Made by a program: the position numbers and the translations under genes
Part shown: positions 10,948 to 23,241 of the stretch, in pieces
Layout: each line of letters opens with the position of its first letter
Numbering within the stretch: position 1 is the first letter of the stretch
DNA from: Methanomicrobiales archaeon
GTDB lineage: Archaea; Halobacteriota; Methanomicrobia; Methanomicrobiales; JACTUA01
Assembly (NCBI GenBank): GCA_030019205.1
Contig: JASEFH010000003.1
Coordinates: 1-64,000 of the forward strand
Length of the DNA: 64,000 nt
Direction: 5' to 3'
Notes under the pieces: model-generated
What the model was told of the DNA's origin: nothing
The model's input: only the letters and a program-made list of their open reading frames with translations
The model's database searches: none

Positions 10948-11292
10948 TTATCCTGCCCGCCTCCAGAAAGCGATCTTTTCCCAGAGGGATTCTTTCGGCG
11001 GCGACAGCAGGGGAGGCAGCCGCTCGTTCAAGAGGGCCAGCTGCCCCTGCAGCCAGGTCTTGTCCCGCTTCAACTCGGTGATCATGAGATCCCTCTCCGC
11101 AAGCTGCACTTTCATGACCTCCAGCTCGCCGGGTTCGGGAAGCGGTGCAGGCGGTGGTGCAGCTGGTGCACCCGCGGTGAGCACCTGGTGCACCGCGCGG
11201 TGGATCCATTCCGAGCGGGAGAGGTTCGATTTTCGGGCCTCCTCGTCAATGACGGTGACCTCATCATCGGGGATGCTGATGCTGAATCGCAT
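10948..11292 (-). CDS. ribbon-helix-helix (CopG-like) DNA-binding protein
   Basis: A probable transcription factor of 114 residues from the chosen start. The first 40 residues (RFSISIPDDEV, then SRSEWIHRAVHQVL) form a beta-strand plus two helices of the ribbon-helix-helix type. A Pro/Ala linker (about 42-52) and a helical segment able to form a coiled coil (about 55-90) follow. ATG at 11292 gives the usual family start at the beta-strand. ATG at 11352 would add 20 residues and is possible; neither has a convincing ribosome site. A cluster of GGTGCA words lies upstream at 11420-11475 and may be its operator. Target genes are unknown; the methyltransferase gene is the nearest same-strand neighbour. 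Confidence 0.7.
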   Translation of the reverse strand: MRFSISIPDDEVTVIDEEARKSNLSRSEWIHRAVHQVLTAGAPAAPPPAPLPEPGELEVMKVQLAERDLMITELKRDKTWLQGQLALLNERLPPLLSPPKESLWEKIAFWRRAG

Positions 11293-11419
11293 GGTGGTCC
11301 CGGAGTGGTTCTTCAATGCTCCGTTTATCACCTTTCCTCTTCGAGATCCCATCGGGAATCCCCATCGATGCCGGAACCGGGAAAAAAGGCCCGGAAGGCA
11401 GACAATCCGGCTAAGGGAC

Positions 11420-11520: not shown

Positions 11521-12246
11521 CTACGGCGGTCCGCCGTTCTCCAGCCGCTCTCGCGCGAGATCGCAGTACTCCGGCACGATCTCGAAGCCCAGGTAATGCC
11601 GCCCCATGCGCTTCGCCGCCACCGCCACCGTCCCGGAACCGAGGAAGGGATCCAGCACGAGGTCCCCGGCCCGGCTGGAGAACGGCAGGATCCGCTCCAC
11701 GAGCTGCAGGGGCAGTTTGGTCGGCGTCTTGATCCTTCCTGTCCAGTACTCGCGGTTGACCACCCAGACATCCTCGGGATAGTGCTCCACCTTGTTGAAG
11801 TAGTACCTCCTGCGGTCCTTCACGGCGAAGAGGATGTGGTAGTGGCTGGTCACGTACTTGCGGCGGGTGAACACCCCGAACTGGTACTTCCAGATGAGGT
11901 GGTTCACCGTGGTGAAGCCGCTGGCATCCAGCGCCGTCAGGATCTCCTTCAGGTGGTTCCACCCGGAGAAGACGTACAGGCTGCCCGTCTCCCGCAGCAC
12001 GCGGAACGCCTCCCGCATCCAGGCTCCGGTGAACTCCCCGTACTCCGCCGTGCCGATCTCCCGGTATCCCGGGAGGACACGGGCCCCGGTGCGGTTGTAG
12101 TTGTTCCTCTGGTCGCGGAAGTCGATGGCGAACGGAGGATCGGTGACGATCAGGTCCACCGAGGCTTCAGGCAGTTCCGGCAGGAGCGCGAGGGCATCCC
12201 CCTGGCAGACGGTATCGAGGGGGAACCTGCCGACGCAGTCGCTCAT
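11521..12246 (-). CDS. site-specific DNA methyltransferase (N6-A or N4-C, beta class)
   Basis: Transfers a methyl group from SAM to adenine or cytosine amino groups in DNA. The 241-residue protein has the catalytic motif TDPPF (35-39) near the N-terminus and the SAM-binding motif DPFLGSGT near the C-terminus. The target-recognition part lies between them, an order that defines the beta class. No endonuclease gene is adjacent, so it appears solitary. Its ATG at 12246 overlaps the iorB stop by 4 bp, coupling its translation to the indolepyruvate oxidoreductase genes. The recognition sequence cannot be read from the protein. Confidence 0.87.
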   Translation of the reverse strand: MSDCVGRFPLDTVCQGDALALLPELPEASVDLIVTDPPFAIDFRDQRNNYNRTGARVLPGYREIGTAEYGEFTGAWMREAFRVLRETGSLYVFSGWNHLKEILTALDASGFTTVNHLIWKYQFGVFTRRKYVTSHYHILFAVKDRRRYYFNKVEHYPEDVWVVNREYWTGRIKTPTKLPLQLVERILPFSSRAGDLVLDPFLGSGTVAVAAKRMGRHYLGFEIVPEYCDLARERLENGGPP

Positions 12247-12833
12247 ACGCCCGTTCTGCACTCCCCGCACGCATCCCGCCCGAGCTGGAACGCGCGGAGG
12301 TTCACGTCCGTGCTCTTCTTCGGCACGCACCGCCGCACCCCCTCGATCATCGCGCTCTCGGAGAGCGGGATGAAGGGCGAGGCGGCGCCGAGCATCACCA
12401 CGTTCTGGGCGAGGGGGCTGCCGGCCTCCCGCGCCAGGGCCGCCGCATCCACCAGGCAGGCATCCGGGAGCCGCTCCTGCACCGTCTCCGCCGTCGGCAA
12501 CGGCAGCTCCTGCACGAAGACCGACGTGGGGACGACGATGCTCCGGCTCGCCACCAGAGTCCCGCCCCCGCGCAGGTAGTGGCGGTAACGGAGCCCCTCG
12601 AGCATGTCGAGGGCGATCAGGAGATCGGCGCTTCCGGGCGGGATCAGGGGGCCGTATACACCGTCGATGCGGATATGGCTCTCCACCGATCCCCCGCGCT
12701 GGGCCATGCCATGCGTCTCCGCCCCCTTGACGTGCCGCCCCTCAAGCAGGCAGGCCTCGCCCAGGATGTTGGATGTGAGGATGATCCCCTGCCCGCCGAC
12801 GCCCACGATCAGGATGTCGAAGCTCCCCCTCAT
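12243..12833 (-). CDS. iorB: indolepyruvate:ferredoxin oxidoreductase, beta subunit
   Basis: Small subunit of the enzyme that oxidatively decarboxylates arylpyruvates (from aromatic amino acids) to aryl-acyl-CoA, or runs in reverse to make arylpyruvates from aryl acids. The 196-residue protein has the gamma-type opening VGVGGQGIILTSNILGE (10-26) and the middle segment KGAETHGMAQRGGSVESH, both typical of this fold. It overlaps iorA by 4 bp upstream and the methyltransferase gene by 4 bp downstream. Confidence 0.92.
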   Translation of the reverse strand: MRGSFDILIVGVGGQGIILTSNILGEACLLEGRHVKGAETHGMAQRGGSVESHIRIDGVYGPLIPPGSADLLIALDMLEGLRYRHYLRGGGTLVASRSIVVPTSVFVQELPLPTAETVQERLPDACLVDAAALAREAGSPLAQNVVMLGAASPFIPLSESAMIEGVRRCVPKKSTDVNLRAFQLGRDACGECRTGV

Positions 12834-15131: not shown

Positions 15132-15608
15132 ATGAGCAAGAGACTGCAATCGATCCTTTTCATGCTTCTCATTCTCGTCACTGCCGTCTCCGTCTGGCTT
15201 TTCTTCTCCGGCAATCCCCTCGGCTTCATCGGTTTCATCCTGGCGATCCTCCTTGCTGTCCTGACCATGTCCGTCCGCATCATGCAGGAGACCACCAACC
15301 TCCCCAATGTCAGTGCGCGGCTGAATCCCGATGCAAAAGGCGTCACGGTGACCAACGGCGGCAACGCACGGGCGGTCAACATCCACGTGGCGCTCGTGCC
15401 GCTGGATGTGGAGTTCGACGTACCCCCGCTGGACGTGGATGCCCGGTACGTGTTCGCCCTCCCCCACATGGTCTCGGAGGCAAAAGCGGTCGTACGCTAC
15501 GAGAACGAGCAGGGACGGAAGTACATGAACACCAATCGCCTCTCCGCGCTGGAACCGACGGAAGAGGATCTCCTCCAGCCGCTCATTCCCATCTTCGGGA
15601 GGAAGTAG
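15132..15608 (+). CDS. uncharacterised membrane-anchored protein
   Basis: A 158-residue protein I do not recognise. Two adjacent hydrophobic helices (about 5-26 and 30-50: LFMLLILVTAVSVWLFF, then FIGFILAILLAVLTM) anchor it. The rest is a soluble, beta-rich domain beginning NLPNVSARLNPDAKGVTVTNGGNARAVNIHVALVP, which resembles the immunoglobulin-like modules of archaeal surface proteins. Start choice: the TATA box at 15101-15110 places transcription near 15130, so ATG at 15132 would be leaderless. ATG at 15123, with GGAG 3 nt before it, is an alternative adding MTN. Confidence 0.7.
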   Translation: MSKRLQSILFMLLILVTAVSVWLFFSGNPLGFIGFILAILLAVLTMSVRIMQETTNLPNVSARLNPDAKGVTVTNGGNARAVNIHVALVPLDVEFDVPPLDVDARYVFALPHMVSEAKAVVRYENEQGRKYMNTNRLSALEPTEEDLLQPLIPIFGRK

Positions 15609-16412: not shown

Positions 16413-16964
16413 TCACTTCTTCTGACTCATCCGGAGGAACGCCAGCGTCTGCCCCAGACAGTCCACGAGGTCCCGCTGCCCCTCGAGATAGTCGTTCATG
16501 GCACGGTAGAGCATGAACATGATCTCGACACCGTAGATGGCGAGCACGTCTGCCGGTGCGATGGGATTCAGGTAGGAGTCGATGCGAAACCCGTCGGAAC
16601 TGTACATCACTTCGTAGAGATGGCCGTCCTCTCCGAGAACGCAGAACTGGTCCTGGATCTTCCTGGTGGCATCGTCCGGACGGTAGGTGTCCGGCTCGAC
16701 CTTGCCGAGGACGATCATCTTCTGCCTGTGGTACTGCGCGTCGTAGATCTCCCCCTTTTGATCCACTTTTCCCCTGTCCAGCATGTTGATGCCGATCCGC
16801 CGCACCACGGGAACGGCCAGCGTTGCCATTCTCTCGAGCAGGAGAGAATCCTTCCCCTGGAGCTCCCGCGAATACTCCTCCTTCCTCCCCTCGAGATCTT
16901 CGATCTTCTGCTGGATGAGCGCAAACCCCCTCTCGATCTGCTCGTTGACGTCCTCCTCTGGCAT
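16413..16964 (-). CDS. uncharacterised protein with N-terminal coiled coil
   Basis: A 183-residue soluble protein I do not recognise. Residues about 5-50 are strongly helical and charged (QIERGFALIQQKIEDLEGRKEEYSRE read in parts), likely a coiled coil. The middle contains VPVVRRIGINMLDRG and a beta-rich part with YDAQYH. The C-terminal third is helical (LAIYGVEIMFMLYRAMNDYLEGQ). ATG at 16964 lies about 25-30 bp after an ATATAT box inside a perfect 26-bp palindrome, which suggests a leaderless, tightly regulated message. It faces the 15132 gene across a gene-free island and is divergent from nadX. Confidence 0.7.
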   Translation of the reverse strand: MPEEDVNEQIERGFALIQQKIEDLEGRKEEYSRELQGKDSLLLERMATLAVPVVRRIGINMLDRGKVDQKGEIYDAQYHRQKMIVLGKVEPDTYRPDDATRKIQDQFCVLGEDGHLYEVMYSSDGFRIDSYLNPIAPADVLAIYGVEIMFMLYRAMNDYLEGQRDLVDCLGQTLAFLRMSQKK

Positions 16965-16972
16965 ATCGTAGA

Positions 16973-16998
16973 GGATATATCCCCGCGGGGATATATCC
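16973..16998. promoter_or_regulatory. 26-bp perfect palindrome, candidate operator
   Basis: GGATATATCCCCG and its exact reverse complement abut with no spacer. Each half contains its own ATATAT box and GGATATATCC subpalindrome. It ends 8 bp before the ATG of the uncharacterised gene at 16964. The outer ATATAT (16991-16996) is placed to act as that gene's TATA box, so a repressor bound here would block TBP. Confidence 0.6.
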
Positions 16999-17167
16999 CT
17001 ATGCTTCAGGCCGCAGCCACGCGGGGACAGCCCGGGGGCATCCGCACGGCGCATGCCCCTGCACCACCGCGAAAACCCCCTACATCCGGAAGCGATCCCC
17101 GGCGGGCGTCGTGCAGCTGAAAACGCCTTCTGTCCGTCGTGGTGCGGCCCGTTTCTCGCAACTCCAA

Positions 17168-17259
17168 AAGTTTTTACTATTCGTACGGGAAATGACTGAT
17201 CCAGTTCTTCTCTCGTGCGGGAGAGACGGTGATTTTTACCGGGATACGAGTGAGCTTGA
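17168..17259 (+). promoter_or_regulatory. nadX promoter and leader with alternative hairpins
   Basis: An AT-rich TATA region (AAGTTTTTACTATT, 17168-17181) precedes a leader that can fold in two exclusive ways: CTCTC/GAGAG (17210-17214 with 17221-17225), or CTCGT/ACGAG (17212-17216 with 17246-17250) enclosing CGGT/ACCG (17227-17241). The second form would pair bases just ahead of the start codon. Whether this controls nadX is unknown. Confidence 0.3.
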
Positions 17260-18018
17260 ATGAAACGGGTTGGGTTGCTCGGATGCGGCAACGTCGGGCA
17301 GATCATCGCCCAGCACCAGGATGGCTTCGAGATTGCTGCGCTCTATGACAAGGTGGAGGAGAGAGCGCGCGATCTCGCTGCCCGGTACGGGGGCACAGCC
17401 TTCCGGGACTTCGAGTCGTTTGTATCGGGGGAGTTCGACATCGTTGTAGAGGCCGCGTCCGTCGGGGCCGTGCGGTGCTACGGCGAGAGGGTGCTGGAGC
17501 ACGGCAAGGATATCGTCATCCTCTCCGTCGGCGCCCTTGCGGATGCGGAGTATGCAGAGCGCCTGGCGGAGACCGCCCGCAGGTGCGGGCGGAGGGTCCG
17601 CATCCCGAGCGGCGCGATCGTCGGCCTCGACAACCTCAAGATCGGGCAGATCTCGAACCTGCGGCGGCTCCTTCTCCGCACGACCAAGAGCCCGCAGTCG
17701 CTCCGGATCGATGCCGGCGAACGGATGCTGATCTTCAAAGGCACCGCCAACGACTGCATCCGCCAGTTTCCAAGAAACATCAACGTGGCCGTGGCGCTGG
17801 GTCTTGCCGCCGGGCGGCAGGCGGAAGTCGAGATATGGGTGGATCCCGCGGTGGAGCGCAACATCCACGAGATCTTCGCCGAGGGCGAATTCGGCGACAT
17901 CTACATCCGGGTGAACAACGTGCCGAGCCCCGAGAATCCCGCCACCAGCTATATGGCCGCCCTCTCCATCCTCACGCTCCTGAAGAATCTGGATGAGCCC
18001 CTCGTCGTGGGAACCTGA
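17260..18018 (+). CDS. nadX: L-aspartate dehydrogenase (NAD biosynthesis)
   Basis: Converts aspartate to iminoaspartate using NAD(P)+, the first step of de novo NAD synthesis in organisms lacking L-aspartate oxidase. The 252-residue protein opens with the Rossmann motif LLGCGNVGQ (6-14). It continues with EAASVGAVRCYGERVL and VGALAD, then the catalytic-domain segments IPSGAIVGLDNLK and GTANDCIRQFPRNINVAVAL, all typical of NadX. It is followed by nadA after 21 bp and nadC by overlap, so the three-gene operon makes nicotinate mononucleotide from aspartate. Confidence 0.93.
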   Translation: MKRVGLLGCGNVGQIIAQHQDGFEIAALYDKVEERARDLAARYGGTAFRDFESFVSGEFDIVVEAASVGAVRCYGERVLEHGKDIVILSVGALADAEYAERLAETARRCGRRVRIPSGAIVGLDNLKIGQISNLRRLLLRTTKSPQSLRIDAGERMLIFKGTANDCIRQFPRNINVAVALGLAAGRQAEVEIWVDPAVERNIHEIFAEGEFGDIYIRVNNVPSPENPATSYMAALSILTLLKNLDEPLVVGT

Positions 18019-22227: not shown

Positions 22228-23241
22228 GTGGATCACTGCTCCATTGATTCTGTTGCAAAGGCGGTGCGGGAGTATGTCGGTGTGACGAGAAAACACGCCA
22301 TCGGCCAGATGATCCAGTCGCTGCGGATCGACTCCCCCGACGTCAACGTTATCGCCTCGTTCGGGGAGGACGCAGCCGTAATCGAGCATGGATCCGAAGC
22401 TCTCCTCCTCGCGGCCGACGGGATCTGGAGCCAGCTGATGGAGGTCGATCCCGTCTGGGCCGGCTACTGCTCCATTCTCGTGAACATCCACGACATCGCC
22501 GCCATGGGCGGCAGACCGATCGCGGTCGTGGACGTCCTCTCGGCATCCGACGAGCGGATCCGGGAGATGGTCACCCGCGGGATGCTGGAGGCCTCGGCTC
22601 AGTTCGGGGTCCCCATCGTTGGCGGGCATCTCCATCCCGATACCCCCTACAGCGTCATCGATGTGGCGATTCTGGGTTCGGCCCGGCTGGATTCGATCAT
22701 CTACAGCAGCACCGCCCGGGACGGCGATCGGGTGATCGCCGCCGTCGACCTGGGGGGCAGGGTTCACCCCTCCTGTGCCCTGAACTGGGACTCCGTGACG
22801 ATGAAGCCGCCCGACCAGGTGCGGGCGCAGATCGGGCTCCTCCAGAGGCTGGGGGAGGAGCACCTGCTGACGGCGGGCAAGGATATCAGCAACCCCGGCG
22901 TCCTCGGCACCCTGGGCATGCTGCTCGAGGTGAGCAACAAGGGCGCCGTGATCGAGATCGACGCGATCCCCCGCCCGGATCTCGCCAGGCACGGGATCAC
23001 CTTCGAGCACTGGGTGCGCATGTACCCCGGCATGGGGTTCGTGCTCACCGCCCGGGACGAGCACGTGGAGGAGGTCTGCAGGCGGTTTGCCGGCGTCGGT
23101 ATCACCGCCCGCCCCATCGGCAGGGTGGACGGGAGCAGAAACCTCACGATCCGGTACCGCGGACGGGCGACCTCCGTATTCGATCTGGAGAAGGATGGAA
23201 TCATGCGGCTCTTCACCAGGGCGGGTGCTGCTCTGCCATGA
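22228..23241 (+). CDS. methanogenesis marker protein 2 (AIR synthase-like)
   Basis: Member of a family found essentially only in methanogens and related methyl-coenzyme M reductase-bearing archaea; biochemical role unknown. The fold is that of PurM/SelD/ThiL-type ATP-using enzymes: GEDAAVIE near residue 46, NIHDIAAMGGRP for the metal/ATP loop, and GKDISNPGVLGTLGML in the second half. It has 337 residues from GTG at 22228, which lies 7 nt after GGTGG. TTG at 22225 would add one residue. The stop overlaps the next gene by 4 bp. Confidence 0.88.
   Translation: MDHCSIDSVAKAVREYVGVTRKHAIGQMIQSLRIDSPDVNVIASFGEDAAVIEHGSEALLLAADGIWSQLMEVDPVWAGYCSILVNIHDIAAMGGRPIAVVDVLSASDERIREMVTRGMLEASAQFGVPIVGGHLHPDTPYSVIDVAILGSARLDSIIYSSTARDGDRVIAAVDLGGRVHPSCALNWDSVTMKPPDQVRAQIGLLQRLGEEHLLTAGKDISNPGVLGTLGMLLEVSNKGAVIEIDAIPRPDLARHGITFEHWVRMYPGMGFVLTARDEHVEEVCRRFAGVGITARPIGRVDGSRNLTIRYRGRATSVFDLEKDGIMRLFTRAGAALP

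Follow-up and report, generated by a model that had tools for sequence, protein, structure and literature searches.

A perfect 26-bp palindrome at a probable leaderless promoter of a conserved gene in a Methanomicrobiales archaeon

The window analysed here, a stretch of 64,000 nucleotides from a Methanomicrobiales archaeon, contains at positions 16973-16998 the sequence GGATATATCCCCGCGGGGATATATCC, which is its own reverse complement and has 8 bp (16965-16972) between it and the minus-strand ATG, at 16964, of a conserved uncharacterised gene (16413-16964, minus strand; 183 amino acids) whose mRNA is probably leaderless. The original prediction, made from the letters of the DNA, had described a perfect 26-bp palindrome 8 bp before a start codon, and this description matches the sequence exactly. 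We conclude that the palindrome is real, that it is uncommon but not extraordinary, and that it stands at a probable leaderless promoter. As the best explanation we propose, tentatively and with a confidence somewhat short of even, that it is a lineage-specific, single-locus operator over the core promoter of the 16413-16964 gene; on present data this reading and that of a mutational by-product are not separable.

The palindrome consists of two copies of the self-complementary decamer GGATATATCC, 6 bp apart, with CCGCGG between them. Because each decamer is already self-complementary, the CCGCGG spacer alone is enough to give the whole 26-mer its symmetry, and the same bases can also be read as an 11-bp direct repeat with a period of 16. 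Numbering upstream positions -1, -2 and so on from the ATG, the proximal decamer (16973-16982, minus strand) carries an ATATAT at 16975-16980, that is at -16 to -11, and the distal decamer (16989-16998, minus strand) carries one at 16991-16996, at -32 to -27, which is the probable TATA box. In a scan of the window for perfect palindromes this one was the longest, the next two measuring 18 bp.

The centre of the distal ATATAT, at -29.5, falls within the peak of A/T runs upstream of start codons in this genome (-32 to -24), and the two ATATAT boxes are the only A/T runs of at least 5 within 200 bp upstream of the ATG. None of the SD words GGAGG, AGGTG, GGTGA and GAGGT occurs at -18 to -4. The gene has, in short, an A/T run about 24-32 bp before its start codon and no SD word, and because the distal box occupies the peak position and the SD word is absent, we regard a leaderless promoter as likely; the earlier suggestion that the palindrome overlies a TATA box agrees with this geometry. 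The elements given in the part of an account of archaeal leaderless promoters consulted here (PMC5316973) do not amount to a 26-bp palindrome, whereas here there is one.

The peak itself was established in two steps of counting. A crude gene caller gave 52 ORFs in the window, with up to five candidate starts per ORF, and in 16 of the 52, the 16413-16964 gene included, at least one candidate start combined an A/T run of at least 6 at -35 to -20 with the absence of an SD word; 15 of these were inspected, the ORF at 23238 being left out, and 16-bp stretches with such a run make up 1.7 percent of window positions. Because the starts inspected in the window had been chosen partly by the run itself, A/T runs were counted across 464 kb (the 64-kb window and 400 kb more of the same genome) at all ATG candidates, 1064 of them in frame in 337 called genes. 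The two 4-bp bins at -32 and -28, together covering -32 to -24, held 39 and 35 runs (74 in all), about twice as many as the neighbouring bins, against 7 to 30 in the other bins, and out-of-frame ATG controls showed no such peak. Downstream of the TATA centres of 84 selected genes, of which 10 had SD-like words, the A/T fraction was 0.59-0.62 at 16-22 bp compared with 0.44-0.55 at 4-15 bp; the 16413-16964 gene was left out of this set, its start lying too far inside an over-long open frame. The proximal ATATAT has its centre 16 bp downstream of the distal one and overlaps the near edge of this A/T-richer zone, so that part of the pattern can be put down to core-promoter elements.

Dinucleotide shuffling of the window, repeated 1500 times, gave on average 0.0047 palindromes per 64 kb with a half-length of at least 13 bp, a rate that scales to about 0.2 per 2.73-Mb genome, and this low expected rate is one of the points that speak for the operator. 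The real genome, however, held in 464 kb four perfect palindromes of about this length, two measuring 26 bp and two 24 bp, GGATATATCCCCGCGGGGATATATCC included, far above the shuffle rate; three of these four lie in called frames, GGATATATCCCCGCGGGGATATATCC only through the over-long frame of the caller. Long palindromes are many more in this genome than composition predicts, and a length of 26 bp is not exceptional there. The claim that the exactness of the palindrome suggests strong selection is not upheld, since the same genome has further long perfect palindromes and exactness is by itself no evidence of selection. A 20-bp perfect palindrome with an A/T core, GGTTCAAATATATTTGAACC (L131 603-622; 124603-124622 of the same genome's contig C3), was also noted, and is intergenic by the crude gene calls.

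Further copies were sought, as the original prediction had recommended for the palindrome or its half-sites. The whole 26-mer, at up to 3 mismatches, has one copy in its own genome. The half-site GGATATATCCCCG, at up to 2 mismatches, was found at 126 places (55 and 71 on the two strands) compared with 18 (10 and 8) for its reversed control; this excess may reflect either a degenerate regulon or ordinary coding words. The exact decamer GGATATATCC has four occurrences in 2.73 Mb, a rarity that also speaks for the operator: two belong to the palindrome and the other two lie in long frames that appear, from their translations rather than a family search, to be primase (DnaG)-like and methyltransferase-like. 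Nowhere else in the genome do two GATATATC lie 2-30 bp apart.

The palindrome was also looked for in relatives. The 26-mer was absent, at up to 3 mismatches, from the other 198 genomes of the order that were sampled, and paired exact GGATATATCC decamers spaced by no more than 20 bp were found nowhere else in the 199. Of 94 relatives identified in a scan of named genomes, all of them Methanomicrobiales (for example Methanolinea, Methanoregula, Methanoculleus and Methanospirillum), the best 80 were taken as the orthologue set. Non-conservation upstream of orthologues in close relatives had been put forward as what would refute the site. In the 150 bp before their rule-chosen start codons, none of these best 80 of 94 has a perfect palindrome exceeding 12 bp, at a genus-to-genus distance over which intergenic DNA cannot be aligned. 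Nor do they show an excess of dyads over shuffles: the mean best-dyad score in the 100 bp upstream of the 80 orthologues was 5.10, compared with 5.00 for shuffles (standard deviation of means 0.10, 20 rounds), while the score of the promoter studied here is 13. Set against five relatives, three of them from the same or the closest match group, the intergenic DNA gave no meaningful alignment, with shared words of at most 9 bp. These comparisons argue against a conserved operator at the gene, and less strongly against a genus-specific one, because the genome is the sole representative of its genus among those sampled and the DNA between genes does not align from one genus to another. A dyad of a different kind, AAAGTTG-N9-CAACTTT (L040 2922-2944, L045 2924-2946, and also L008), precedes the orthologue in three genomes that belong to a single sister genus and lies beside a TATA-like ATAAAAG; it may be an operator, or it may belong to the promoter of another gene.

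The operator that we tentatively favour would cover the core promoter of the 16413-16964 gene, with the distal ATATAT, placed by computed geometry, as the TATA box of a presumed leaderless transcript. A dimer, or two dimers on decamers spaced 16 bp apart, would block TBP and TFB and so repress the gene, and the proximal A/T box would lie close to the region expected to melt at initiation. The predicted dimeric repressor site is possible in this sense, but comparison lends it no support: there is one copy, none in 198 other genomes and no dyad excess among 80 orthologues, although an operator that serves a single locus would not have to recur. The operator was counted less likely because of that single copy, the lack of paired sites and of an orthologue dyad excess, and the presence of other long palindromes. 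A more specific version, in which the two self-complementary TATA decamers 16 bp apart would present the TATA box together with the melting region to an unfamiliar type of dimeric repressor at a genus-specific site, we consider unlikely.

Palindromic repressor sites near the TATA box are known in methanogens from NrpR, whose operators have the form GGAA-N6-TTCC; GGATATATCCCCGCGGGGATATATCC differs in containing neither GGAA nor TTCC. A second comparison is with MsvR, for which the parts of the report consulted (PMC3729527) state that the Methanothermobacter protein prevents TBP and TFB from binding at its own promoter, that the TATA box of M. acetivorans msvR has its centre 27 nt before the start site, that a related M. 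mazei transcript was classed as leaderless, and that the MsvR boxes are a partial inverted repeat, TTCGTAN4TACGAA. By analogy, and as far as those parts go, MsvR is a precedent for a methanogen repressor that blocks TBP/TFB (PMC3729527), and its boxes resemble GGATATATCCCCGCGGGGATATATCC in being an inverted repeat at a methanogen promoter; TTCGTAN4TACGAA is, however, absent from GGATATATCCCCGCGGGGATATATCC. Elsewhere in the window, two perfect palindromes of 18 and 16 bp (2399-2416 and 2439-2454) lie 22 bp apart within ORF 164-2572, and the second, TCTTCGTATACGAAGA, is similar to TTCGTA/TACGAA, the half-boxes of MsvR, though it lacks the N4 spacer. Literature searches on GGATATATCC gave, among the matches listed, none on archaea by title; those on a Methanomicrobiales transcription factor with operator and inverted repeat gave none on such an operator by title, and those on an NrpR operator palindrome in methanogens gave no match.

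The strongest competing explanation, which we rate only just below the operator and likewise short of an even chance, is that this is an ordinary leaderless promoter whose perfect symmetry is a mutational by-product, with no repressor bound. A self-complementary decamer bearing the TATA box could have been duplicated, or a quasi-palindrome perfected by template switching, a process described at quasi-palindromes in the parts of two reports consulted (PMC7202029, PMC3820800). The 11-bp direct repeat of period 16 fits such a history, although it stops after 11 bp and so falls short of a clean tandem duplication. The positions of both ATATAT boxes are accounted for to a large extent by a TATA box and, 16-22 bp downstream of it, the A/T-richer zone; the two 26-bp and two 24-bp palindromes, with three of four in called frames, and the absence both of a second site in the genome and of conservation in the order genomes sampled point the same way, whereas chance placement exactly at the TATA position is somewhat unlikely. 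Were the palindrome such a by-product, perfect symmetry alone would be weak evidence for regulation; were it an operator, it would mark the regulation of a gene found in 190 of the 199 order genomes sampled, and could lead to its regulator.

We consider it improbable that the palindrome acts in RNA, with transcription starting further upstream and an 11-bp stem with a CGCG loop controlling translation before the start codon. The 26-mer is predicted to form a hairpin of -17.0 kcal/mol, but between -33 and -206 no A/T run of at least 5 is available as a TATA box further upstream, the ATG would stand only 8 nt from the stem and is preceded by no SD word, and no Rfam match at E up to 1 covers the palindrome; the one sub-threshold Rfam match lies inside the 16413-16964 gene. 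We consider it very improbable that the palindrome, instead of being regulatory, is the scar of a mobile element or the target of a site-specific DNA enzyme, since, despite a footprint-like 11-bp direct repeat around a 5-bp spacer and a DNA methylase gene at 11521-12330, the region 16950-17200 is single-copy in the genome, as a repeat element would not be, and viral contigs, considered as a possible origin, hold no exact copy of the palindrome.

A CopG-type ribbon-helix-helix protein is encoded at 10948-11352, adjoining the gene of the methylase, which is of the N6/N4 DNA type. Ribbon-helix-helix proteins are a class that binds palindromes; nothing connects this gene to the palindrome at 16973-16998.

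The product of the 16413-16964 gene is near-universal in the sampled Methanomicrobiales and has no recognised family or fold. Counting its own genome, an orthologue was present in all 11 genomes of the family and in the 190 of 199 in the order mentioned above, with one match in each of the 190; among order genomes with a completeness of 90% or more and a contamination of 5% or less, 132 of 132 had it. Searches of Pfam and NCBIfam found no family at E up to 1, nor did sequence comparison give a convincing solved relative, the best E being 0.22. The AlphaFold2 model (mean pLDDT 85.8, pTM 0.71) combines a long helix with a five-strand region and C-terminal helices; a Foldseek search with this model found nothing at E up to 0.001, and VIA-align gave nothing above Z 3.5, mostly over residues 57-145. 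From these failed structure matches to a predicted model neither a new fold nor the absence of a DNA-binding role follows. Autoregulation by the 183-aa product was considered and set aside, there being no Pfam or NCBIfam family, convincing solved relative or Foldseek match.

The divergent neighbour, on the plus strand at 17260-18018, is an aspartate dehydrogenase gene, nadX-like by Pfam match. Control of nadX by the palindrome was rejected, because nadX has its own TATA-like ATTTTTA at 17232-17238 (-28 to -22 from its start) and does not need the palindrome, which lies about 260 bp before that start. A nadX relative occurs in the fetched stretch at 51 of the 80 orthologue loci, at only 6 of them within 700 bp of the gene. 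A relative of ORF 15132-15608 occurs in the stretch at 58 of these best 80 of 94 loci, in every case convergent with the gene; at 53 of the 58 it lies less than 200 bp from where the match ends.

Finally, an SD-like GAGGAGG is found at 16952-16958, inside the 16413-16964 gene and just before residue N7, and the position of N7 is an ATG in 61 of the 80 named orthologues (best 80 of 94). The gene studied here may have lost the N7 start and moved to the upstream ATG.
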